DNA of 64,000 nucleotides from a virus. Positions 1,592 through 28,625 of the stretch are shown here, piece after piece. Made by a program: the position numbers and the translations under genes. The stretch spans positions 62,001-126,000 of IMG/VR virus record IMGVR_UViG_3300047378_000694; one strand, written 5' to 3'. Each line of letters begins with the position of its first letter. Position 1 is the first letter of the stretch. The notes below the pieces were generated by a model. That model ran no database searches, was not told the DNA's origin, and saw only the letters and a list, made by a program, of their open reading frames with translations.

Positions 1592-2031
1592 GTTGGTTTA
1601 ATCACATAACAGTTCTGTTCGCTAGTTTCAGTTTCAAAAAACTTGCTTGTTTGTTCAAAACCAGCATTTAAATAAGTTTCTAATGCAACTTTCCTTGGCA
1701 GGCTCCAACAGTAAACCATTTCTGCGTTGCGTCCAAGATAACAAGCATGTTTCAACAACTTTGTGCCAATTCCTTTTTTTCTATATTGAGGAAATACAAA
1801 CAACCCTCTACTCCTATAGTGAAATCTACTACTGCAATGTCCGCTATTAACTCCTGCTATTTCGCCATCGACAATATAAGCAAAAAAAGTCGGAGTATAT
1901 TTTTTACTTATACTAGTATAAGGTATATCCTCATATCTCATATTACTCATTGGCAATATTTCTTTTCTGTTAGGCCAGAGATGTTTTTTCCAAATTTCTT
2001 GTATGTCTAAAAATGTAATGTATTCAATCAA
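1588..2031 (-). CDS. GNAT-family N-acetyltransferase
   Basis: 147 residues, a normal size for a single GNAT domain. The acetyl-CoA pyrophosphate-binding loop is visible as YRKKGIGTKLL near residues 82-92, preceded by the beta-strand RSRGLFVFP, and the C-terminal half has the usual SLPRKVALETYLNAGFE region. The start is TTG at 2031: a GGAG lies about 6 nt upstream (near 2038-2041), whereas the first internal ATG would delete the N-terminal strand. It overlaps the aldehyde dehydrogenase by 8 bp and the radical SAM gene by 4 bp. Acyl acceptor unknown. Confidence 0.85.
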   Translation of the reverse strand: MIEYITFLDIQEIWKKHLWPNRKEILPMSNMRYEDIPYTSISKKYTPTFFAYIVDGEIAGVNSGHCSSRFHYRSRGLFVFPQYRKKGIGTKLLKHACYLGRNAEMVYCWSLPRKVALETYLNAGFEQTSKFFETETSEQNCYVIKPT

Positions 2032-3004
2032 TCTGATCTCCTACAACAATATGTTTGGGTACAAGATATTGATATATTTTAAAAAAACTTTGATTGAATG
2101 TATTGCCGCTAGAAGCCATTCCACTGTGTGGCATTTCAACTGGCACAGTTAATGGTTTGTTTACAAAGATAGTTCCCCAACGTGCATGTTCAACTACATA
2201 ACGTTTGGTTGCTAAATCTTTGGTGTATAAATGCAATCCTAATCTATTAGGAAGTTGGTTTATTTGTTTTACAAGATCTTTGATATTTGTATATGTGCTT
2301 ACTGTTGCTGTAGGAGAAAAGTGATCAATATCATTGCACTCTCCTAAGGTAACACCGTCAATTTTTGTTACAGTATCAAGTAGTTTTTCAACAACAAAAA
2401 TATGTTTAGGTGCTGTGCAATCTGCTCCAAGATTGTACTTAACACTCCATTCAAGATTTTCTAATATAAATGCCGAATTACCATCGTTAACAACTGCTAT
2501 ACTTGCTCCGCCTACATCTGCGTTTACATCATGGTGGTTTGATTTAAAATAATCTGCTGTTTTCTTGCTGCCTGTTATATCAACAAAGTCATACTCTTGT
2601 AAATTTATATTGTTGACTATTTTTACACTATTGTATTTGTTTTTCCAGTTATCTAATATCCAAGGCAAGGCACCTACATTACCATCATTTAGTTTAATAT
2701 CAATAGTGCATCCAGCTGCTAGTGCCGGCGCTATTTTCCATAATGCTATAACCAATGGATAGTTCCAAGGAACAACACCTAAACAGTGTCCTTTTGATTC
2801 CCATCTCATACTACTAGTGCATGTCTTAAAGTATTCATATTCAGGCACGGCTATTAGGTTTCGAGCTGCACCAGCATAATATCTACAAATATCAACACTG
2901 ATATTAATAAGAGCAGTAGGTTCTAGTTGTAGAATATATTCTTGATTATCTTCAATAAACTGAGCCAAACTCAAAAGAATTGATTGTTTATCTTGTGGTT
3001 TCAT
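2024..3004 (-). CDS. Compact aldehyde dehydrogenase-like protein
   Basis: 326 residues against about 480 for typical ALDH enzymes. Family landmarks are visible: GVVPWNYP with N81 as the oxyanion asparagine, K104 in the NAD(P)-binding segment, catalytic C196 in GADCTAP, and a C-terminal SGMASSGNTFNQ resembling the usual GGxxxSG region. The general-base glutamate of the ELGG motif appears to be Asp (D163 in ADVGG), with the expected ~33-residue spacing to the cysteine. The ORF begins 6 bp after a perfect sigma70 -10 box, with no Shine-Dalgarno, so the mRNA is probably leaderless. It could be an NAD(P)-dependent acyl or aldehyde oxidoreductase; activity is uncertain given the shortening. Confidence 0.8.
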   Translation of the reverse strand: MKPQDKQSILLSLAQFIEDNQEYILQLEPTALINISVDICRYYAGAARNLIAVPEYEYFKTCTSSMRWESKGHCLGVVPWNYPLVIALWKIAPALAAGCTIDIKLNDGNVGALPWILDNWKNKYNSVKIVNNINLQEYDFVDITGSKKTADYFKSNHHDVNADVGGASIAVVNDGNSAFILENLEWSVKYNLGADCTAPKHIFVVEKLLDTVTKIDGVTLGECNDIDHFSPTATVSTYTNIKDLVKQINQLPNRLGLHLYTKDLATKRYVVEHARWGTIFVNKPLTVPVEMPHSGMASSGNTFNQSFFKIYQYLVPKHIVVGDQID

Positions 3005-3682: not shown

Positions 3683-4336
3683 TTATTTTATATGATTTAC
3701 TTGTATCTCTTGCTTAGATTTGGTTGGAAAAACAAATTCAGGTTTGCTATGATGCTCTCTGCGTGGTCTTGATTTATTTTTGAAGCCAATCCCCATTAAC
3801 AGTTTGATTGGATTTTTAGCACCAACTATAGTTGCAACTTCTGTTGCGTCAAAACATGCACAACACCCTGTTCCGTAGTGTAGCATACTAGAAATAAGAT
3901 TTGCATATCCTGCTGCAATACCAATTGCCATGTGTGCATCTTTTTCTAAATTTTCCTTTTGAGCAGCCGTTAGTTTACCATCATCATGTGCCCACATTTC
4001 GTCATTTCGATGTACTGTATCAGTAGTATGTCTACTCATATAATCTTCAACTTCAAATGCTAATACTAAGTTTGCTAGTACTTGACTGTTGGTTTCATTC
4101 TTTCCTGTTTCGTAATTTAAAAAACCTGAAGTAGTGTCATGAATATTTTCAATAACTTGTCTATTGGTAATTACATGAACTTTATAAAAGGAAATATTCT
4201 GTTTGCTAGGACAGTTTGTTACACTATGGACTATTAAATCAATGTCATCCTGCGGAATCTGTTTTTGTAAATCCCAGTTGCGTTGACAATGCTGACTTCT
4301 AATAATTGCTTTTTTTACTTCTGTATGGTTCATCAA
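3683..4336 (-). CDS. Nitroreductase-family flavoprotein (copy 1)
   Basis: 217 residues with nitroreductase hallmarks: an N-terminal RSQHCQRNWDL helix carrying FMN-binding arginine/serine residues, NCPSKQN near residues 37-43, and a C-terminal GIAAGYANL plus GTGCCACFD region. It is a clear paralogue of the plus-strand gene at 8815-9450, with most of the N-terminal 45 residues shared. Expected role: FMN-dependent NAD(P)H reduction or dehydrogenation of a small substrate. A GAGGAG precedes the start; TTG at 4336 and ATG at 4333 are both possible. A late-type CATAAATAC lies just upstream, so this gene can be transcribed apart from the early operon. Confidence 0.85.
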   Translation of the reverse strand: MMNHTEVKKAIIRSQHCQRNWDLQKQIPQDDIDLIVHSVTNCPSKQNISFYKVHVITNRQVIENIHDTTSGFLNYETGKNETNSQVLANLVLAFEVEDYMSRHTTDTVHRNDEMWAHDDGKLTAAQKENLEKDAHMAIGIAAGYANLISSMLHYGTGCCACFDATEVATIVGAKNPIKLLMGIGFKNKSRPRREHHSKPEFVFPTKSKQEIQVNHIK

Positions 4337-8814: not shown

Positions 8815-9450
8815 ATGTTTTTAGATGACGCTAGTACAAATATCAAAAAAGCTGTTATTCGCAGCCAGCATGTTCAAAGAAATTGGGACCTAAGTCAAGA
8901 AATGCACCAGGGTGATATAGATCTTCTTGTTCATGCTGCAACTAATTGCCCAAGTAAACAAAACTTTAAATTTTATGATTTACATGTAATTACAAATAGA
9001 AATAGTATTGAAGAAATTCACAAGAACACCAATGGTTTAGGTATCACAAATGAAGAAACTGGCAATGCAGAATTTACTACAAATAGTCAAGTTCTTGCAC
9101 ATAGTTTATTTATTTTTACTGATACAGTTAGATCACCCAAGTACATAGAAAAGTGGAAAAATCACGATGGTGAATTAGAAAAAAATTGGATTCGAGATCA
9201 ACATATGGCGATTGGAATTGCAGCTGGTTATGTAAATATAATTGCAAGTCAACTAGATTACAGAACTGGTTATTGTGCATGTTTTATTAATGAACCTATA
9301 CAGGAAATCATTGGTTCAAATAACAGTATCGAACTAATGATCGGCGTTGGCATTAAAGACGACAGTTTGGATCGTAAAGTACATCATAAAACTGGTAGAA
9401 TGCTGCACAGTTTTGTCAAAGAACCTATTACAGTACATTACCACAGATAA
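8815..9450 (+). CDS. Nitroreductase-family flavoprotein (copy 2)
   Basis: 211 residues, paralogue of 3683-4336 on the opposite strand. Shared blocks include RSQHVQRNWDL, TNCPSKQN and GIAAGYVN. It is a monocistronic gene with a late promoter and a good AGGAG. Expected to bind FMN as a dimer and use NAD(P)H. The two copies flank a gene set rich in oxygenases and radical SAM enzymes, which fits paralogous reductases with different substrates or timing. A hairpin follows the stop. Confidence 0.85.
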   Translation: MFLDDASTNIKKAVIRSQHVQRNWDLSQEMHQGDIDLLVHAATNCPSKQNFKFYDLHVITNRNSIEEIHKNTNGLGITNEETGNAEFTTNSQVLAHSLFIFTDTVRSPKYIEKWKNHDGELEKNWIRDQHMAIGIAAGYVNIIASQLDYRTGYCACFINEPIQEIIGSNNSIELMIGVGIKDDSLDRKVHHKTGRMLHSFVKEPITVHYHR

Positions 9451-18740: not shown

Positions 18741-19692
18741 TTAACATAAACCTCTTGTACTTGGGCAGTTCTAATTCGCCACTATATAAAATATTATTCA
18801 TAGGTGCTTTTACTGCAAACTCTTCTATACTTCTAACACAATTAACATGTTCTTGCACTTCATAATAATTATTACTTTGTAATACAACTAATTTACCAGT
18901 AGGAATCTTTGCATACCATTCTTCAAAGTTTTCAATATGTTCGCAACTTGTGTTTATAACAGTATTAGGAGAGTCTGTTAAATTTACCTGACTACCGTCG
19001 CTGCGTTTGACAGCATATGTATGTTGATTATAATTTATATTATATATGTCTTGTATTGATGATTTAAATTTCCAATCTTTCATTACCCAAGGCTTGTTAA
19101 ACACTTCTGCAATATCTACACATCTTGGATCTATGTCGAAAGATCTAACATTATCTAACTTAATGTTACTTTCAAATAACATTACTGCAAGTGTAGCATA
19201 CCATCCTGCACATAAAAACACTGTTCCTAGTTCTACATCCAACTTGTCAAGTTCATTTACTAGCCATAATTTACTTTCTAGCTGCCCTCTACTAAAACAA
19301 TCATTCCATATTTCTGTTTCGTTTACAAAAAAGTTTTTAAAGGCTGCTGTAAATTGTGTATTTACATATCTATCAAGAATTGGCCATAACTTATATATGT
19401 TATCTTCTAATACAAGTTTGCGCAAATCATCATCACCAAGAATTCTAAAAATGCTATGTAAATTTTTTTCTATAACAGCTTTGCGTAGATCTTCAGTATC
19501 GTGACTATCTATAGTTCTAAAAATACTGTGCAAGTTTTCTTCCATTATTGCTTTGCGCAATTCTTCATCTGCATTTAACAATCTAAATAAACTACTTAAA
19601 TCATGATCAATATATACTCTGCGTAGATCTGATAACTTTGAATTAGTCGGATAGAGTAATTCAAATCTATCTAGTAATTCAAATGTTTCCAT
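18727..19692 (-). CDS. SAM-dependent methyltransferase-like protein with N-terminal repeats
   Basis: 321 residues from the ATG at 19692 (AAGGAG 7 bp upstream). Residues ~40-110 hold about three ~27-residue helical repeats of the form DLRKAVIEKNLHSIFRIL. The C-terminal ~200 residues form a Rossmann domain with FLCAGWYATLAVML as a degenerate SAM loop, VRSFDIDPRCVDIA as the acidic strand and INTSCEHIENF later. The gene at 38688 encodes the same C-terminal domain without repeats. The methyl acceptor is unknown; the repeats could bind a partner. Confidence 0.7.
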   Translation of the reverse strand: METFELLDRFELLYPTNSKLSDLRRVYIDHDLSSLFRLLNADEELRKAIMEENLHSIFRTIDSHDTEDLRKAVIEKNLHSIFRILGDDDLRKLVLEDNIYKLWPILDRYVNTQFTAAFKNFFVNETEIWNDCFSRGQLESKLWLVNELDKLDVELGTVFLCAGWYATLAVMLFESNIKLDNVRSFDIDPRCVDIAEVFNKPWVMKDWKFKSSIQDIYNINYNQHTYAVKRSDGSQVNLTDSPNTVINTSCEHIENFEEWYAKIPTGKLVVLQSNNYYEVQEHVNCVRSIEEFAVKAPMNNILYSGELELPKYKRFMLIGYK

Positions 19693-21598
19693 CAAATTGC
19701 TCCTTTAACCAATCAAAGTCGTTTATCTTTTTGAGAGCTTCGGTGTTGCCTTGATTGGCCATGCCATATGCTGCGCCTTCTCTTGCACCTCTAATAGCAT
19801 CCTCTCCATAAGGACGATCTTTTCCTACTGTTGTCCAAATACGCAAACGTTCTTCTGTTTCTTCGTTCTTTTGCCTATCAATTACTTTACTACTAAGTTT
19901 TGTACATTCTCTAAATGCACTTTTAAAACTATTAAATGCATCTGTATTGAATGCAGTAATGTTGCTTATGTCATGCACTGCTTTGAACTTAGTACTAATA
20001 CTAGTTGTCATGTCAGGCTTGCTAGTATCCATATTGATAGTCAAGTCAGTTGGAAATAGTTTTACACCGCCATACCCATATACCATATCATTGATTGGAT
20101 TTTGACTGCGCCATACATGTACCATTTCTTTGTCCCAACGTGCAACTTGGTAATCAAAGTTAAAGTCATCTACAATAGTTGCATCTCCATCAATAATCCA
20201 AAACAACTCTGTGTTGCATAATTTTGCGCCTGCAATATGTGCTTGGTGGATACCTTTTACTCCATGTACACGTTTACATCGAGGAAAGCGTTGAAGTATA
20301 CGTTCATAATTTTCATCAGCATTTGGTTCTTGGTAACTAATAAAAACTATATCATATGGCTTGGGTGTACTAATTGCAATGTTTACTTCTTTTTTGTTTG
20401 CAATAAACTTATAGTCAAACTCTCGCCTACTAAACTTGCCGTTCTTACTACACAATACTATGCCGTCATGATACTTTCCATTAAGATATGCATGGTTAAT
20501 TTTTCTGTCATATGTTTGATCGTGTGTAAAGTAAGTGTCAAATGCAAAACGTGCTGTTGGATTTACATAAGGTGGAATAATCCAAAACATTTCAGTGGGC
20601 GAATTTTGTAACGCATCAAGATAGTCTTCGTATACTTTAGGATAGTACTTTGCATACTCAATCGGTCCACTACCGACTATATCCCATTCTTTACAACCAA
20701 CTATGTGCCGGTGCTCTATTTCTCGCTTGGTCACTTGCTTGTGCTTTGACAACAAAAACAAACCATTGCGTTTATTGTTAACGTGTAAGAAAGAGTGGTT
20801 AGTCATTCTGTCATACGCATTGTCATGTGTAAAATATATATCAGGAAGGTCAACGCTAATATTTGCACTACTCATCCAAAACATTTCTGTTTTACTATTT
20901 TCAAGTGCATACAAATAGTCATCGTATGTATCTATTTCAAAAACATCATAAGTTGTTGCAGTCGAACCAACTATATCCCATTCTTTACGACTTACCAAAT
21001 GTCTAAAGTTTATTTCTTTTTCACTGAGTGATTTTTGTCTTGAACATAAAAATAAGCCGTTGTATATTCTCCGCTCATTAACATCATGTATAAATGCATG
21101 ATTTTCCTTTCGATTGTATGTGTCGTGGTGTGTAAAATAAATGTCCGGTAATGTAGATTTAATATTACGACTATCTATCCAAAACATTTCTGTTTTTGAT
21201 GTTTGCATTGCATGTAAATATTCTTCGTATGTATCTACATAGAAATGATCATATGCAACAGGATTACTTGCTAGTACTTCAACTTTTTTACTTTGTACAT
21301 AAAATCTATGCTGTGTTTCTTTTACATTAAATTTTATATGCTTGGGTATAAGAGATATACCATCGTAGTCTTTGCCATTTAAAAAAACATGTGCAACATC
21401 TTGACTCCAGTCGTCAGGAGTGTAATCAAACTCAAAGTCATTTGCAATTTCTAAATCGTCATACACAATCCAAAGAAATTTAGTTAGGCTAATTTGCTGT
21501 GCTTTTTCAACACTATCGGCTTTTTTTGCAATAAAGACTTTTTGCTTGAGTTTGTTAAACTGTTCTTCGTTGGTTCCTACAAATACAATATCAAACAT
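19679..21598 (-). CDS. Glycosyltransferase with four ~100-residue repeats
   Basis: 639 residues from the ATG at 21598; the frame is open 63 codons further but would run across the promoter and into the divergent gene. Repeats at ~1-112, 113-213, 214-312 and 313-412 share TEMFWI, then YFTHDxxYDRxxNHAFLH, and REWDIVGS-like ends; the first is most diverged. The C-terminal part (~415-639) is a GT-A-like domain with metal motif D470-G-D472 and VHGVKGIHQAH, paralogous to 55285-56214. The repeats look like degenerate copies of the start of the catalytic fold. First gene of a nine-gene early unit. Confidence 0.75.
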   Translation of the reverse strand: MFDIVFVGTNEEQFNKLKQKVFIAKKADSVEKAQQISLTKFLWIVYDDLEIANDFEFDYTPDDWSQDVAHVFLNGKDYDGISLIPKHIKFNVKETQHRFYVQSKKVEVLASNPVAYDHFYVDTYEEYLHAMQTSKTEMFWIDSRNIKSTLPDIYFTHHDTYNRKENHAFIHDVNERRIYNGLFLCSRQKSLSEKEINFRHLVSRKEWDIVGSTATTYDVFEIDTYDDYLYALENSKTEMFWMSSANISVDLPDIYFTHDNAYDRMTNHSFLHVNNKRNGLFLLSKHKQVTKREIEHRHIVGCKEWDIVGSGPIEYAKYYPKVYEDYLDALQNSPTEMFWIIPPYVNPTARFAFDTYFTHDQTYDRKINHAYLNGKYHDGIVLCSKNGKFSRREFDYKFIANKKEVNIAISTPKPYDIVFISYQEPNADENYERILQRFPRCKRVHGVKGIHQAHIAGAKLCNTELFWIIDGDATIVDDFNFDYQVARWDKEMVHVWRSQNPINDMVYGYGGVKLFPTDLTINMDTSKPDMTTSISTKFKAVHDISNITAFNTDAFNSFKSAFRECTKLSSKVIDRQKNEETEERLRIWTTVGKDRPYGEDAIRGAREGAAYGMANQGNTEALKKINDFDWLKEQFDGNI

Positions 21599-21604
21599 AA
21601 TTAC

Positions 21605-21633
21605 ATTATATATGATTCTAAACGGTATGTCAA
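21605..21633 (-). promoter_or_regulatory. Sigma70-type promoter (perfect consensus)
   Basis: TTGACA (21633-21628), 17-bp spacer, TATAAT (21610-21605), then 6 nt to the ATG at 21598. It drives nine minus-strand genes to 12275. No ribosome site is present, so the message should be leaderless. Confidence 0.88.
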
Positions 21634-21646
21634 GTCCAAAAAAACC

Positions 21647-21654
21647 TATAAATA
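21647..21654 (+). promoter_or_regulatory. T4-type late promoter TATAAATA for the fibre/halogenase unit
   Basis: Perfect TATAAATA, followed by AGGAGAG and the ATG at 21672, leaving a leader of about 11 nt. It lies only 14 bp from the -35 box of the divergent early promoter. Confidence 0.85.
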
Positions 21655-21671: not shown

Positions 21672-23537
21672 ATGGAATTATACGAAGGTGGACAATATAG
21701 AATCGATATTGTTGGAGCAGATAGCTCAATTATTGTAGATAGCAATACAGGAAGAATTAGTGCAAGCCTTTCAAACAGTGTAGACACAATTGTTGTCGAT
21801 ACTGAAGCAGCTAAATTTTACGGATCATTAGTTGGATCAGTTTTTGATAGTACAAATAATATTGCATACGATCCAGATACTAGACAGTTTTCTGGAAAAC
21901 TACGAGGTTCAATGATAGATACATTTGGCGATACTATCATTGACAGTCAATCAGTTAATGTACCTCTCCAAGCAAACATTATCGGAGCTAACGGATATGT
22001 CGGATTTGATTTAGAAACACGCACGTTCAAAGGCAACTTTCATGGCGACCTTAAAGATAGTCTAGACTCTGTTATACTTGCTATGGATGCAGACGAACCT
22101 GTATTACGTGCATCATTAAGCGGAAATATGTATGCATCTAATGGTGCTCAAGTATTTAATACTGCTGATCGATTATTTAAAAATGCAAGTTTACAAGGCG
22201 ATATAATTGACCCAAGTGGTGCTGTACTTCTCGACCACGACAACGGAACGTTTCACGGAGTATTTAGTGGTAGCATACGTAGTATGTCAGACGGCAGTTT
22301 ACTTATTGATCAAACCAACGGACAATACCGTGGCGACTTAGTTGGTAATATTATTGGAAGAAATAGCGGAGACATACTATATAATAACGACAGTGAAAGT
22401 TTTTACGGAACTTTTGTTGGCAATATTTCTGATGAAGCCGGAAATACAATATTGTCAACTAGTATCACTAATCCAAAAGTAAAAGCTAATATTCTCGATG
22501 CTCACGGAGCTGTACTATTAGATTATAACACTGGTATATTTTACGGCGTAGTGAATAATTCAGTGGCTACTTCGCTTGCTGGTAATATTATTCATCCAAA
22601 CACACAAGACACTATTTTTGACGTAGTTAGAGGTGAATTTGAACAACCTATTACTGCAAATGTATACGGTAACTTTACTGGTAACATACTTAACGAAGAT
22701 CAGACTTATGCGTATGACGCTAGTTCTGATATGTGGAGTTCGCGTAGAGTAAGAGCAACAGAACTGTTTGGTCATCTAGATGGATCCTTTGCTGGTAATA
22801 TTACACACAACGACGGAACATTGTTTGATGCAACAACAAAACATTGGTCAAATGTAAGTTTAACTGGATATTTGTTTGACAACAACGGATTGGAAGTATT
22901 TGACCCAAGTGCAAACACACTATCAACTCGTACACTATACTCAGACAATGTTATATGTACTGACATCGACATGGATAGTGTACAAATTAAATCTGATGGT
23001 ATATCAGTTGTAGTTGAATCAATATATAGTAATCCTTGCTTGAGTGGTAAGTTTTTTAGAAATGTTAGTCCAAACATTCCGGATTGGATTCAGCAAGGAG
23101 TACGTCTCGAAGCAGTAGGCGGAACATGGCTTGCGCCTGAATCCGTTGAAGCTGGACATAAACTACCTTCAATTGGCTGGGCAGCAGCAATTGATGTTAA
23201 CGAAGACTACGAAGATAGTACAATGGATAACATGGAGGGAGGTGAGAAATTTGCTCTTGTTGCAAACATATATGGCAGAATTCCTGATGGAGCAACTTTT
23301 GATGTAAATGCTGGAGATCAGCGTGGGGCACCAGGCGAACTTGTTTTTCAAACACAAGCACAAGATTATAGTGTAAATTATATGATCCTCGACAGCGAAG
23401 GTAAACTAGCTACTACACTTAATGAATTTAAAGTATCAGGCGAAACAGGTGTAACACCAAGTAATACAAGCACACCAGATAGCTGGTTACAGGCAACAGT
23501 AAATGGCGAGACAAAATTTATTCCGTTGTATAGTTAA
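21672..23537 (+). CDS. Repetitive fibre-like virion protein
   Basis: 621 residues. Residues ~1-400 consist of ~25-30-residue units of the type LxGxIxDxxGxxIxDxxTxxFxG, alternating Gly, Asp and beta-branched residues, which suggests a beta-solenoid shaft. The C-terminal ~170 residues are less repetitive (LEAVGGTWLAPES, then LNEFKVSGETG) and end like other T4-like phage fibre or wedge proteins. It should be made late and assembled into the particle. Its stop overlaps the next start (TAATG), linking it to the modification enzymes downstream. Exact tail position unknown. Confidence 0.72.
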   Translation: MELYEGGQYRIDIVGADSSIIVDSNTGRISASLSNSVDTIVVDTEAAKFYGSLVGSVFDSTNNIAYDPDTRQFSGKLRGSMIDTFGDTIIDSQSVNVPLQANIIGANGYVGFDLETRTFKGNFHGDLKDSLDSVILAMDADEPVLRASLSGNMYASNGAQVFNTADRLFKNASLQGDIIDPSGAVLLDHDNGTFHGVFSGSIRSMSDGSLLIDQTNGQYRGDLVGNIIGRNSGDILYNNDSESFYGTFVGNISDEAGNTILSTSITNPKVKANILDAHGAVLLDYNTGIFYGVVNNSVATSLAGNIIHPNTQDTIFDVVRGEFEQPITANVYGNFTGNILNEDQTYAYDASSDMWSSRRVRATELFGHLDGSFAGNITHNDGTLFDATTKHWSNVSLTGYLFDNNGLEVFDPSANTLSTRTLYSDNVICTDIDMDSVQIKSDGISVVVESIYSNPCLSGKFFRNVSPNIPDWIQQGVRLEAVGGTWLAPESVEAGHKLPSIGWAAAIDVNEDYEDSTMDNMEGGEKFALVANIYGRIPDGATFDVNAGDQRGAPGELVFQTQAQDYSVNYMILDSEGKLATTLNEFKVSGETGVTPSNTSTPDSWLQATVNGETKFIPLYS

Positions 23538-24217
23538 TGTTTGAATACTATTATAATCATGTGCCAGGTGTTGGCTTGTGTAGAAATAATTTAGTATACA
23601 CTAGTAAAATAGATAGACAAAACAAACTTTTTAGTGTACACTATAAGTATGATCAAATGTATCATATGAACAAATGTTTATCTGAAGATGCACTCGAGAC
23701 AAGATGGCAAAGAGAAATAAAATTTACCAAACAAATGCTTAAATCTTTTCCTGAACATGTTTTAGAAATACAGCACATTGACATGGATACTAGAGAGATT
23801 ATTTTTAATATCGAAGGAGATGACTTTTGGCAACTAGCAAACTGTAATCAAGAAAACTATAATAACATTTTGCCTGGTTGGCAGGATCAAATAATTAGTA
23901 TCTTAAAAAATTACAGACGTGCAGGTATATGGAAATATAGCTTACATCCAAGTAGCTTTTTTGTTGTAGACGGTAAACTAAAAAATATTAATCATTTTTT
24001 CTGCTATAACGACAACGAAGAACATGTAGCAATTACTGAAGTTTTAGATCATATAAGCAATGACCGAAAAGACAAACTACTAAAATATTTAGATGCTAAG
24101 AATATAAAAGTAACAGATAGCGCACCTTGGAGTACGTATGCACAAATTTGCTTAGAAAGTTTTAAATCAAACTACCCAGATAGCTTTATTGAAAGGGCTA
24201 AAGAAATATATGTTTAG
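23537..24217 (+). CDS. Kinase-like (aminoglycoside phosphotransferase-like) protein
   Basis: 226 residues. The C-terminal half has WKYSLHPSSFFVVDGKLKNI, which reads as a degenerate kinase catalytic loop (H-x-S/D-x4-F-x4-G-x-L) followed by the metal-binding strand, and the N-terminal half has LETRWQREIKFTKQML like a C-helix. The usual catalytic Asp is not in place (HPSSF), so it could be a pseudokinase or a fold relative. Translationally coupled (TAATG) to the fibre-like gene. Function inferred from fold pattern only. Confidence 0.5.
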   Translation: MFEYYYNHVPGVGLCRNNLVYTSKIDRQNKLFSVHYKYDQMYHMNKCLSEDALETRWQREIKFTKQMLKSFPEHVLEIQHIDMDTREIIFNIEGDDFWQLANCNQENYNNILPGWQDQIISILKNYRRAGIWKYSLHPSSFFVVDGKLKNINHFFCYNDNEEHVAITEVLDHISNDRKDKLLKYLDAKNIKVTDSAPWSTYAQICLESFKSNYPDSFIERAKEIYV

Positions 24218-24803
24218 TATTAAGGAGTTTTCAGAAGATCTCGACTTAACAAGTTTTTATAACAATGCCAAAGAAAGAGGGTACTACAACAACTGTAATC
24301 AAAAAGTGTTACATGATAATATGAAACATTTAAATGATTATAAAACATATCTTCTATATTGGAATAAGGATGTAGTAGGAAGTGTATGTTTACATAGTCT
24401 TGAAGAACTAAACATATTAGGTGATAATGCTTATCGCATTGGCGTACGAACATGTATGTTGAGCCATTTAATAGATGGTCCTAAAGCATTGTTAGTGCAA
24501 AATTATAGGCGTGCTCCTATGAATCATTATACTAGTCAATTTTTACTACCAATTTGTATTAAATATTGTGGTTCTGATAAGCCATTATATATAAGCACTA
24601 ACGACAATGAAGCAGGTGCACAAATTAAAGTTCATAGGACTTGGGCAACTATTATGAACAAACTAGGATATTTAGAAGATCCCATTGAATTAGATTATAG
24701 AAACAACTTTCAAGATTTTTGGAAATTAAATACAGAATTTTATTTACAAAATTGGAAAAACAATCTTTGGAAAGAAGCTGAATTTTTAGCGGAGGATATG
24801 TAA
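24210..24803 (+). CDS. Putative GNAT-like acyltransferase
   Basis: 197 residues from the ATG at 24210, which overlaps the previous stop by 8 bp; the frame also opens at a TTG at 24189. YLLYWNKDVVGSVCLH, then YRIGVRTCML and LYISTNDNEAGAQIKVHR followed by NKLGYL resemble a GNAT fold with the late C-terminal strand. The pyrophosphate loop RxxGxG/A is not clear. It shares a unit with an adenylating enzyme, so acyl transfer from an activated acid would make sense. Weak family call. Confidence 0.45.
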   Translation: MFSIKEFSEDLDLTSFYNNAKERGYYNNCNQKVLHDNMKHLNDYKTYLLYWNKDVVGSVCLHSLEELNILGDNAYRIGVRTCMLSHLIDGPKALLVQNYRRAPMNHYTSQFLLPICIKYCGSDKPLYISTNDNEAGAQIKVHRTWATIMNKLGYLEDPIELDYRNNFQDFWKLNTEFYLQNWKNNLWKEAEFLAEDM

Positions 24804-25771
24804 TGTATAAAATTTTTATTGACGGTATTCTGTATACTGAAAGCGACAATGATATAATGCGTTCTCATGTAATTGACAAAATTGAAGAATGGGAAGTTAC
24901 TGTAAACACTAGCGGCACTACAGGATATCCACGTAGCGTCACACATAGTAAGGAAGTCACAAGACACATTAGCGAATTTAATGCAGAGTGGTTTGGTTTA
25001 AAAGAATCTAGTAAGATGCTCAGTCTTTACAGCACAAGAGGTATTGCATTTACCGTAATGAGTTTGTATCCTTGTTTATTAGCTAACAGTGAGCTTTACA
25101 TAGAAACCGAAGTTGGTCCAAGGTTTGTAGACAGGGTGCATGAGATACGTCCTACACACGGTTTGATACTTCCTAATATGTGGAGAGTATTACACAAGCA
25201 TCGACGTTGGAATGACTTGGACCTAAGTAGCTATGAGCAGTGTATTATAGGCAGTGACTACACTGCTGTTGGGTGCTTAGAGGATTTACGCAACAAAGGT
25301 GCACAAAAAGTTTACAATGTTTATGGTGCAACCGAAGTTCCGCCAAACGTGCTAATGAGCGAAATACCAAACACATATACACTAGAAGGTAATCCTAATG
25401 TTGATGTTAAAATTGTTGATAACGAAATACATGCACGTTGGAAAATACAAGGCGATTGGTGGCAAAGCGGAGATTTAGTTGAAGAAACAGACGATGGATA
25501 TAAACTTGTAGGACGTAAACTAAATATGTTCAAGTTAGGCGAGTGTGGAGTTAGAGTATACCCAGAACAAGTGGAAATGATAACTGTAAAGGCAGGTGCC
25601 GATCTTGCACTTTGTCGGAATGTTAATGACAAATGTATAATTTACTACACAGGCACAATTGACGAACAAAACGTTTTAGATCAATTGTCTCATTCTGCTG
25701 TAATGAAACAAGTTAAAGAAATCAAAGTAGATAATAACCTGCGTAAAATTGATAGGACGCAAACAATATGA
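24803..25771 (+). CDS. Miniature adenylate-forming (ANL superfamily, AMP-binding) enzyme
   Basis: 322 residues, against ~500 or more in ANL ligases. Core motifs are intact: phosphate loop TSGTTGYPRS (36-45, Arg where Lys is usual), YGATE (174-178), SGD (222-224), GRKLNMFKLGE (237-247), and K315 in LRKIDRT as the C-domain adenylation lysine. It should activate a carboxylate as an acyl-AMP. No carrier-protein gene is visible nearby. It overlaps the halogenase gene by 4 bp. The region before the phosphate loop is reduced to ~35 residues. Confidence 0.85.
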   Translation: MYKIFIDGILYTESDNDIMRSHVIDKIEEWEVTVNTSGTTGYPRSVTHSKEVTRHISEFNAEWFGLKESSKMLSLYSTRGIAFTVMSLYPCLLANSELYIETEVGPRFVDRVHEIRPTHGLILPNMWRVLHKHRRWNDLDLSSYEQCIIGSDYTAVGCLEDLRNKGAQKVYNVYGATEVPPNVLMSEIPNTYTLEGNPNVDVKIVDNEIHARWKIQGDWWQSGDLVEETDDGYKLVGRKLNMFKLGECGVRVYPEQVEMITVKAGADLALCRNVNDKCIIYYTGTIDEQNVLDQLSHSAVMKQVKEIKVDNNLRKIDRTQTI

Positions 25772-27183
25772 AAATTACAGTAGTAGGTGCAGGAACAGCA
25801 GGTGCGTTTGCTGGTGCTTGGGCTAAGAAAAATTTTCCTGATGCAGAAGTTGTACAAATTTATAGCAAAAATATTCCAACAATTGGTGTCGGCGAAAGTG
25901 TTACTCCACATATATGGGCGTTTTTAGAACAGTTTGGCGTTGATCAATCAAAATGGATAAAAAATGTAAATTGTACAACAAAATTAACAAACTGTTTTGA
26001 GAATTGGGCCGACGAAGATCAGCACTTTGGGTTTACACTTAATAAACCAATAGACAAGTTGTATAGTTACGATTTAAATACATATTTAGATTGTAGAAAA
26101 CCTAACTACTTAGATGTTTGTATTGATTTATATAAAGATAAAGATGTAAATAGTTTCCAAGAAACTTACTATGAGTTGTATGACTCAGTTTTGCAAAATC
26201 AAATACCAAAATCAACAAAACAGTCATATGTATTATCGCATCATATAGATGCTAACGAAATGGCAAACTGGGTAATTAATAATATATCTGTGCCCTTAGG
26301 TATAAACTTTATCGAAGGTAAAGTTTCAAACGTTACATGTAGCAGCAATGGTATTAAAAGTGTTACAGTAGATGGTGCAGAAATAGAAAGCGATTACTGG
26401 CTAGATTGCACAGGATTTTCAAGACTATTGATAAACAGTGTTTCGGACGAACTTGCTTTGTATAAAGACAATAAACCTAATACCACTATAGTTATGCCTA
26501 TTAAAAACAAAAATGAAAAAGTTTTTACAAGAACAATACGCAACGAGTTTGGATGGCAATTCAAAATTGCATTACAACATAGGACTGGAACAGGAATTAC
26601 ATTTAGTGATGAATATTTTACAGACGAAGAAGTAAAGAATTATTTACTACAAAACGAGAAAGACAATTTACTAGAACCAAGAGTTTTAAAGTGGACACCT
26701 GCCAGAATGAAAAATCCTAGATCAGGTAATGTTTTTGCAATAGGATTAGCAGCAGGATTTATTGAACCTATGGAAGCTAATGCATTGTATTTAACACTTG
26801 CTACAATTTATAGAGCTGTAGATACAATAAATTTTCAAAATGATAAGTTATTTGACAATATTATTCCACAATGTTTTGATGATGCAGCATTTTTTATTCT
26901 TGCCCATTATACACTTTGTAAAAAAGGAAATGGCAAGTTTTGGAAAGATATGCGTAACTTAGGCATAAAAAATAATCACGAAGACCTAGTATATAAAAAA
27001 TATAAGAACAATACGTTCATGAAAAGTTCAAATTGGAAAACATTATTTCCTGATTATATGTGGGCACATTTAGCAATTGGGTGGGATTGTAACTTAGACA
27101 AATACGGAAATAATAGTTCCAAAGAAGAAAAACAATTAGTGCTCGACTATCTTAAATCCAATAGGCAAAATGTCTTTAATTGA
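25768..27183 (+). CDS. FAD-dependent halogenase (tryptophan halogenase family)
   Basis: 471 residues. The FAD motif GAGTAG (7-12), GVGES (40-44), K72 at the position of the catalytic lysine that forms the chloramine, DCTGFSR and the late GFIEPMEANALYL (with the conserved Glu) are present. The diagnostic WxWxIP is changed to WQFKIA, so activity may differ. Halogenases of this family occur in marine T4-like cyanophages. It acts after a coupled adenylating enzyme in a late unit, so an activated aromatic acid is a possible substrate. It overlaps the convergent gene by 48 bp. Confidence 0.85.
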   Translation: MKITVVGAGTAGAFAGAWAKKNFPDAEVVQIYSKNIPTIGVGESVTPHIWAFLEQFGVDQSKWIKNVNCTTKLTNCFENWADEDQHFGFTLNKPIDKLYSYDLNTYLDCRKPNYLDVCIDLYKDKDVNSFQETYYELYDSVLQNQIPKSTKQSYVLSHHIDANEMANWVINNISVPLGINFIEGKVSNVTCSSNGIKSVTVDGAEIESDYWLDCTGFSRLLINSVSDELALYKDNKPNTTIVMPIKNKNEKVFTRTIRNEFGWQFKIALQHRTGTGITFSDEYFTDEEVKNYLLQNEKDNLLEPRVLKWTPARMKNPRSGNVFAIGLAAGFIEPMEANALYLTLATIYRAVDTINFQNDKLFDNIIPQCFDDAAFFILAHYTLCKKGNGKFWKDMRNLGIKNNHEDLVYKKYKNNTFMKSSNWKTLFPDYMWAHLAIGWDCNLDKYGNNSSKEEKQLVLDYLKSNRQNVFN

Positions 27184-27792
27184 TTTTGCCCAGTGTTGAT
27201 TTGTTGTAAGTCGTACACCTGTTTCTAATACTTCAAAGTTATTCATCACGTTACGATAATCCATTTGATTTAGTATTGGACTAATAAATTTATCAAACAT
27301 ATAACGAGGATTTTCACCTCCAGGGTATATTGAGATATCTTTATACACCCATAGAGATCGTGTTAATAACTGCCTAACTACTAATTGGTATCGAGGATAC
27401 TGTCCAAAGTTAGCAGCACTATGACTTTTGCCAGCATACATTGAATAGTATTTGCCATCAGCTTTAAGAGGATACATTTTGTTTGCATCTAAATCAATTA
27501 ATGAAGCACAATCGCCGCTGATGTTTAAATGATAACGATTATCAACATCAGTGTGTGCAAAATAACATGTTCCCGACTCTTGTTTTATAATCCTTGCTTC
27601 GCCGATATTCTCTAACGGTGCAAGTAATTCGTCAAATACTGTACCTTTATACTCTGGTAGTATTTCCCAAGTGTCATAAAAGAAATCGTTGGTCGGCTTG
27701 TTAAGTACACTTTTGCCAGTCATGGATTGACACATCATAAGAGCTTCTGAAAGTTTAGCAGGAGTTGTTGTGAATTCAGTGTTAGTAATCAT
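27136..27792 (-). CDS. Aspartyl/asparaginyl beta-hydroxylase-like Fe(II)/2OG oxygenase
   Basis: 218 residues. H80 and D82 (YFAHTDVDNRYHL), H124 (GKSHSAANFG) and R134 (YPRYQLVVR) form the set. A helical C-terminal ~75 residues follows, containing YPGGENPRYMFDKF. It is a single-gene unit whose ATG is 5 bp after the last A of a TAAATA late box, with no ribosome site. It converges on and overlaps the halogenase, so read-through of either gene makes antisense RNA to the other. Confidence 0.75.
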   Translation of the reverse strand: MITNTEFTTTPAKLSEALMMCQSMTGKSVLNKPTNDFFYDTWEILPEYKGTVFDELLAPLENIGEARIIKQESGTCYFAHTDVDNRYHLNISGDCASLIDLDANKMYPLKADGKYYSMYAGKSHSAANFGQYPRYQLVVRQLLTRSLWVYKDISIYPGGENPRYMFDKFISPILNQMDYRNVMNNFEVLETGVRLTTNQHWAKSIKDILPIGFKIVEH

Positions 27793-27818: not shown

Positions 27819-28625
27819 ATGATAAGAGGATTCGAAAACTTACCGTATATTAATTTAGATCCATTTTTAGATATTACTGGATTTCAAAATCTACACGCCG
27901 AGATTGCAAGCGGAATGGCACAAGCACGTGAGTTTGCCAAAGAAGGTACTTGGATGAAGCCAGGATTTAACTTTGACGATATGAGCTATATTGCAAACTG
28001 GAAGCCTGTATATCAAGCATTTGAAGAATACCAGCAATTAGAAGCTAATGATCCAATACGCATCGAAGGTGATAAAATATTTCCTAAAGACTTTAATGAT
28101 TATAAACAACGTAATATATTTGTGCGTTATCTAACAACCACATTAGGTGCATACGATCCTTACATTTATTATGTACTAAAAGAAGAAGGCACAAATATGA
28201 AAGACCGTGCAAACGAAGAAAGAGATGCAACTCCAGAGTCGGCATACTTTCCTAATGTAATGCAATGGGTTAATAAATTAAAAGACGACGGTATAGTTGA
28301 ATACACAGGCCGGGTAATATTTTTTGTAAGTTCTGGAAGTAGTAAGCCTTTTGAACATAGAGATCTCGATGCTGATACACAAGATTACACAGATCATAAT
28401 ATCGAATTTATACATATTCGTCCTAATACAAAACGTGGATTCTATGTGTGGGATCCAGAACATAAACGCAAACACTACATAAACAGTCATGCATGTTTTT
28501 TTAATGATCAAGATTGGCATGGTGGAGAATTTAGTATGGAACAAGAATACGGGTTACGTATTGATTGTAAATTTACAAAAGAGTTCAAAGAGCGTATTGG
28601 CATAGGACACTTGACACATTACTAA
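27819..28625 (+). CDS. Fe(II)/2-oxoglutarate-type oxygenase
   Basis: 268 residues. H180 and D182 (FEHRDLD), H234 (DQDWHGGEF) and R247 (YGLRID) are placed as an oxygenase triad plus 2OG anchor, preceded by the strand TGRVIFFVSSGSS. The N-terminal ~150 residues are helical and unassigned. It is divergent from the other oxygenase at 27136 with 26 bp between starts. It lies next to the halogenase unit and could act on the same product. The next gene has its own early promoter starting in this gene's last codons. Confidence 0.7.
   Translation: MIRGFENLPYINLDPFLDITGFQNLHAEIASGMAQAREFAKEGTWMKPGFNFDDMSYIANWKPVYQAFEEYQQLEANDPIRIEGDKIFPKDFNDYKQRNIFVRYLTTTLGAYDPYIYYVLKEEGTNMKDRANEERDATPESAYFPNVMQWVNKLKDDGIVEYTGRVIFFVSSGSSKPFEHRDLDADTQDYTDHNIEFIHIRPNTKRGFYVWDPEHKRKHYINSHACFFNDQDWHGGEFSMEQEYGLRIDCKFTKEFKERIGIGHLTHY

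Follow-up and report, generated by a model that had tools for sequence, protein, structure and literature searches.

Putative acid-activating, acyl-transferring and halogenating enzymes are encoded together in a late gene unit of an uncultured T4-like phage and recur in other phages

Genes for a shortened AMP-forming ligase (mini-ANL), a GNAT-fold acyltransferase-like protein and a flavin-dependent halogenase lie side by side in an uncultured phage and are found together, in varying order, in many marine phages unrelated to it. Their recurrent adjacency, the exchange of part of the set as one block and the motifs kept by the enzymes argue for a functional cassette with the ANL at its core, and the sequences suggest that the marine phages carrying it make a halogenated acyl product. 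Phage halogenases as such are already well known (PMC2984593, PMC3037559, PMC10452541). The ANL-GNAT-halogenase module is apparently unreported, as our literature search found neither a report of such a module in a phage nor one of an ANL or GNAT partner.

The window, i.e. the whole 64,000-nt stretch of DNA analysed here, covers positions 62001-126000 of a 170,115-bp IMG/VR virus record. By inspection, the open reading frames (ORFs) of the record include replication genes of T4 type and apparent homologues of gp20, gp21 and gp22, and its DNA polymerase is 49% identical to the counterpart in Sinorhizobium phage Phosso; judged by its genes, the source virus is an uncultured T4-like phage. Five ORFs on the plus strand at 21672-27183 encode, in this order, a fibre-like protein, a kinase-like protein, a GNAT-like protein, an ANL and a halogenase, with successive overlaps of 1, 8, 1 and 4 bp, and the ORF coordinates thus confirm the gapless unit with overlaps of 1 to 8 bp described in the first-pass annotation. 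For the genes of the unit dN/dS is well below 1 in the non-saturated comparisons, indicating purifying selection. Among 50,697 cultured-phage records we found no DNA-level match to the five-gene region and no match to the fibre-like, kinase-like and GNAT genes. The features of the unit and its surroundings are the following:

21605-21633, minus strand: perfect sigma-70-type promoter (TTGACA-17-TATAAT), pointing away from the unit, to the gene at 19679-21580
21647-21654, plus strand: TATAAATA, a late promoter motif of T4 type, 17 nt upstream of the fibre ATG
21672-23537, plus strand: fibre-like repeat protein, 621 aa (homologues in L014, 85%, and L027, 36%)
23537-24217, plus strand: predicted pseudokinase of protein-kinase fold, 226 aa
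24210-24803, plus strand: predicted GNAT-fold acyltransferase-like protein, 197 aa
24400-25790, plus strand (edges to about 100 bp): block replaced in comparison with the sister phage L014, covering all but the first third of the GNAT gene and the whole ANL gene
24803-25771, plus strand: mini-ANL (AMP-forming ligase, PF00501), 322 aa, N-terminal subdomain missing
25768-27183, plus strand: flavin-dependent halogenase (PF04820)
27136-27792, minus strand: 2OG-Fe(II) beta-hydroxylase, convergent with the halogenase and outside the unit
27819-28625, plus strand: 2OG-type oxygenase, by motif only, outside the unit

For six of the ten genome-wide copies of TATAAATA, a gene start follows within 60 nt; among 55 permuted control words the average is 6.5%, and none reaches 60%. 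The motif is therefore a real start-associated one, and its sequence fits a T4-type late promoter, which supports the proposal that the unit is expressed late together with the fibre-like gene. The site is identical in L014, ATAAATA variants are located upstream of the fibre homologues in L034, L043, L045 and L059, and the motif is absent at the L027 and L030 loci. The sigma-70-type promoter of the divergent gene is also present in the L014 sequence. This divergent gene (19679-21580, minus strand) encodes a repeat-containing protein of 633 aa, compared with 737 aa in L014 (L014 2-2215), a difference that seems to reflect repeat units lost or gained between the sister phages.

The fibre-like protein has nine G-x-hydrophobic-x-G repeats, compared with 0.15 in shuffled sequences, and no family match in the profile search; from these repeats the name fibre is likely to be right. 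For the product of 23537 the AlphaFold2 (AF2) model was uninformative (pLDDT 52), although kinases led the fold search, and the sequence profile was used instead. It matched the TTK kinase (E 3e-5), so the kinase-like reading holds as regards ancestry, but not catalysis: KYSLHPSS stands in place of HxDxxxxN and INH in place of the catalytic residues of DFG, and the HxD, N and DFG-D residues are replaced throughout the family, which makes this protein a pseudokinase. Of 44 loci with a gene of the broader GNAT family, 19 hold the pseudokinase-GNAT pair, and in some twenty other contigs the GNAT gene adjoins a fibre homologue. No homologue of the fibre or the pseudokinase was detected in the remote ANL modules, and both genes are therefore a local setting rather than part of the core module.

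The AF2 model of the 24210 product (pLDDT 89.8) is led by GNAT structures among its PDB matches, 22 of which have E <= 0.001, and as predicted by this model the protein folds as a GNAT, in line with the earlier assignment. The best matches by E-value or TM-score include two acyl-transferring enzymes, the N-acyl amino acid synthase FeeM (2g0b, E 3.3e-4) and the siderophore N-acyltransferase NcdE (9nij, TM-score 0.56); identity to FeeM and to siderophore N-acyltransferases is 10-11%, so that the family placement is by fold only. Members of the family give weak FeeM and Acetyltransf_1 matches, the former in 11 of 25, and by inspection the Q/RxxGxG/A pyrophosphate-binding (acetyl-CoA) loop is not visible in the family alignment. 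An upstream TTG at 24189 was rejected as the start; homologues align from the ATG at 24210. A fatty-acid desaturase-like gene with an HRLxSHRSF motif (by eye) is located between the fibre homologue and the GNAT gene in L059 (4218-4982, minus strand) and L066 (4217-4981, minus strand), a neighbour that hints at a GNAT family handling fatty acyl groups.

The product of 24803 matches PF00501 with E 1.7e-16 and 60.4 bits (cut-off 29.9), over profile positions 170-359 of 384 only. It shares with acyl-CoA synthetases and adenylation domains the motifs A3 (TSGTTGYPR at 36), A5 (YGATE at 174) and A7 (SGD at 222), and its C-terminal domain is present, with the A8 hinge (GRKLNMFKLGECG at 237) and the A10 lysine (NNLRKIDR at 311). 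Unlike known PF00501 enzymes, it is without a full N-terminal subdomain (A1, A2), with about 150 residues missing. The family match and these later core motifs support the carboxylate-activating function predicted for it. Ala stands where amino-acid adenylation domains have the Asp (235 in PheA numbering) that binds the alpha-amino group, in an EntF alignment of moderate quality, and the acid is therefore probably not an alpha-amino acid. The best NCBIfam match is a long-chain-fatty-acid--CoA ligase (E 3e-18), far under every curated cut-off, and the closest known enzymes include the short AMP ligases of the DVU_1553 family (about 331 aa). A peptide-pattern search of genome contigs confirmed no cellular relatives. 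The short ANLs of L082-L095 (226-238 aa) nearly all stop at the A8 GRK hinge or shortly beyond it. The C-terminal A10 lysine domain is missing from these remote ANLs consistently across many phages, so that their conserved function may be something other than adenylation.

The halogenase appears to be a working one, as it matches PF04820 with E 1e-65 and 222.8 bits (cut-off 21) and keeps both catalytic residues, K72 and E336. It also matches solved tryptophan halogenases (E 1e-42), and its FAD-binding GxGxxG motif is GAGTAG at position 7. Its GWxWxIP region reads GWQFKIA, with Phe for the second Trp and Ala for the Pro. In halogenase relatives of 357-360 aa from L083, L085, L087 and L089, Asn replaces the essential Glu and a GWLW motif is present. 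Neither a Flavin_Reduct-type reductase (PF01613) nor a carrier-protein gene (PF00550) was found in the record, and the host must therefore supply reduced flavin and any carrier. Two nitroreductase-family proteins are encoded in the window (3683-4336, minus strand, and 8815-9450, plus strand, the second under the Pfam cut-off) and are possible flavin-reducing partners of the halogenase.

Comparable phage enzymes are known from other gene settings. VirX1 of cyanophage Syn10 (PDB 6qgm) is likewise a phage-borne halogenase of the PrnA/RebH type, matches the window halogenase with E 9e-27, and halogenates many test substrates (PMC8407142), but its locus differs, the Syn10 neighbours being annotated only as hypothetical and the annotation holding no ANL or GNAT. 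In Pelagibacter phage HTVC008M and Synechococcus phage Sf-CH11, the halogenase is situated among structural or packaging genes beside 2OG oxygenases, as here, although no ANL or GNAT is annotated alongside and the enzymes are about 28-30% identical to that of the window. A halogenase in a late structural unit is thus not in itself a novelty, as the late structural operons of these two phages already contain one.

Two 2OG oxygenases had been noted just beyond the unit. That at 27136-27792 was confirmed (E 5e-20), but on the minus strand, and the one at 27819-28625, the product of which has no PDB or Pfam match, is recognised by its H180-D182-H234-R247 set only. The 170-kb record as a whole has 21 radical SAM matches, of which 18 exceed the Pfam cut-off and several carry SPASM domains; most of them lie at window positions 1-55000, and the number appears extreme for a phage. 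An aldehyde dehydrogenase at 2024-3004 (minus strand) is, at 326 aa, shorter than its family and begins at profile position 48, and a 4581-aa ORF (L011 3955-17697, minus strand) is located downstream of the window.

The conservation of the linkage, on which the earlier interpretation itself was staked, was observed both in close relatives and in remote loci. L014 and L027 keep the full order of fibre, pseudokinase, GNAT, ANL, halogenase, convergent 2OG enzyme and 27819 homologue. The strongest evidence came from the remote loci. Next to a different halogenase type (L004 type, 26% identical to that of the window), an ANL is directly or nearly adjacent, downstream, in 8/8 loci, six of which show a 4-bp overlap with the halogenase, and a remote GNAT type (L021 type) has an ANL nearby in 15/15 loci, with a halogenase as well in 10. 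Altogether, with the window type counted, an ANL stands beside a halogenase in 21 contigs and beside a GNAT only in 5 more, counts that include several near-copies and hence fewer independent lineages. Both GNAT-ANL without halogenase and halogenase-ANL without the window GNAT family occur. Since only the window type and L056, out of the 44 broader-family GNAT loci, are accompanied by an ANL, ANLs are not simply common in such regions. In L019, L051 and L057, a halogenase, a second pseudokinase-like gene, a 27819-type oxygenase, a pseudokinase and a GNAT are clustered without an ANL. The order of the genes varies between phages (gnat-ANL-hal, gnat-hal-ANL, ANL-gnat-hal and hal-ANL), and we therefore rejected the first-pass reading of the gene order as a reaction order; the late timing, the enzyme identities and the linkage are supported, while the reaction order and a need for the fibre and kinase-like genes are not.

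A comparison with L014 further indicates how the module changes. In a sliding comparison, the DNA identity of the window to L014 changes abruptly: it is >90% up to about 24400, mostly 45-73% (about 60%) up to about 25790 and about 85-95% thereafter. Correspondingly, the window ANL is 46-48% identical to the L014 and L027 ANLs, as against 92% for the window and L014 halogenases. After the same GNAT breakpoint, L030 has a TauD-family oxygenase (PF02668, E 7e-18) and a gene without assignment in place of the ANL and halogenase. The window ANL is instead 73% identical to the ANLs of L003 and L004, the neighbouring halogenase of which is only 25-26% identical to that of the window. The trees are likewise discordant: window, L014 and L027 are grouped in the halogenase tree with support of 100/100, and never in the ANL tree (0% of bootstraps), where the window ANL is nearest to L096/L097, phages with the other halogenase type. 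Placed on the halogenase tree, the ANL link requires at least two to three changes. That the distal GNAT gene and the whole ANL gene were replaced as one block suggests, from the sequence comparison, that the two proteins share one substrate.

Our preferred explanation, to which we give about an even chance, is a late, swappable tailoring cassette in which the ANL activates an acid, the GNAT transfers the acyl group and the halogenase halogenates. The mini-ANL would convert a carboxylic acid to an acyl-AMP and hand it to CoA or to a host carrier, the GNAT-fold protein would move the acyl group onto an amine acceptor, and the halogenase, supplied with reduced flavin by a host reductase, would halogenate an electron-rich ring of the same product. 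We infer that all three steps concern a single product and that acid activation, acyl transfer and ring halogenation are the simplest chemistry for the cassette. Against this explanation stand the missing N-terminal subdomain of the ANL, the absence of a clear acetyl-CoA loop in the GNAT, the reliance on host partners, the remote ANLs without the A10 lysine domain, and the pairs that do without either the halogenase or the window GNAT family. Bacterial natural-product clusters, e.g. that of pyoluteorin, combine an ANL with a flavin halogenase in carrier-bound halogenation. The phage unit likewise pairs an acid-activating enzyme with a flavin halogenase, but it is phage-borne, has no carrier protein in the record and includes a GNAT as a third partner.

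The ANL and GNAT could also form a functional unit of their own that acylates a protein, the fibre or a host lipid or amine, the halogenase being a separate late enzyme sharing the slot. The five contigs with GNAT-ANL and no halogenase, the joint exchange of GNAT and ANL while the halogenase stayed, and the lone halogenases of many phages would fit this; we nevertheless consider it rather unlikely, as the halogenase-ANL pair occurs without the window GNAT family in 8/8 loci and the adjacency persists though the order changes. A distinctly unlikely reading is that the enzymes modify the fibre or another virion protein by halogenating or acylating its side chains, while the pseudokinase serves as a binding scaffold. 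The fibre gene is indeed first in the unit behind the late motif, GNAT relatives adjoin fibre homologues elsewhere, and the HTVC008M and Sf-CH11 halogenase genes lie within structural operons, but late timing alone would explain this co-location, and no homologue of the window fibre was detected in the remote modules (L083-L095, L096-L103).

There is only a slim chance that one member has been misread, the ANL being a non-adenylating binding domain or the halogenase an oxygenase. The loss of the A10 lysine domain in remote ANLs and the Asn at the essential Glu in L083-type halogenases point that way and limit the cassette claim, but the window enzymes keep the A3-A10 motifs, K72 and E336. That unrelated late genes have merely accreted, adjacent without joint function, is very unlikely: enzyme genes and gene exchange abound in the window region, but the adjacency holds across three halogenase lineages that are deeply separate, with the gene order shuffled and the trees in conflict.

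Marine phages commonly carry flavin halogenases. In the tailoring cassette that we favour, the ANL must recognise a specific acid and the GNAT an acceptor, which turns the question of the natural halogenase substrate into ordinary enzyme assays. As a tentative extension, the module may be a mobile one of marine T4-like phages that decorates the virion or frees a halogenated acyl compound in lysis, with its ANL/GNAT specificity half swapped like a host-range determinant. Should the product prove real, phages would themselves be producing halogenated organic compounds in the sea.
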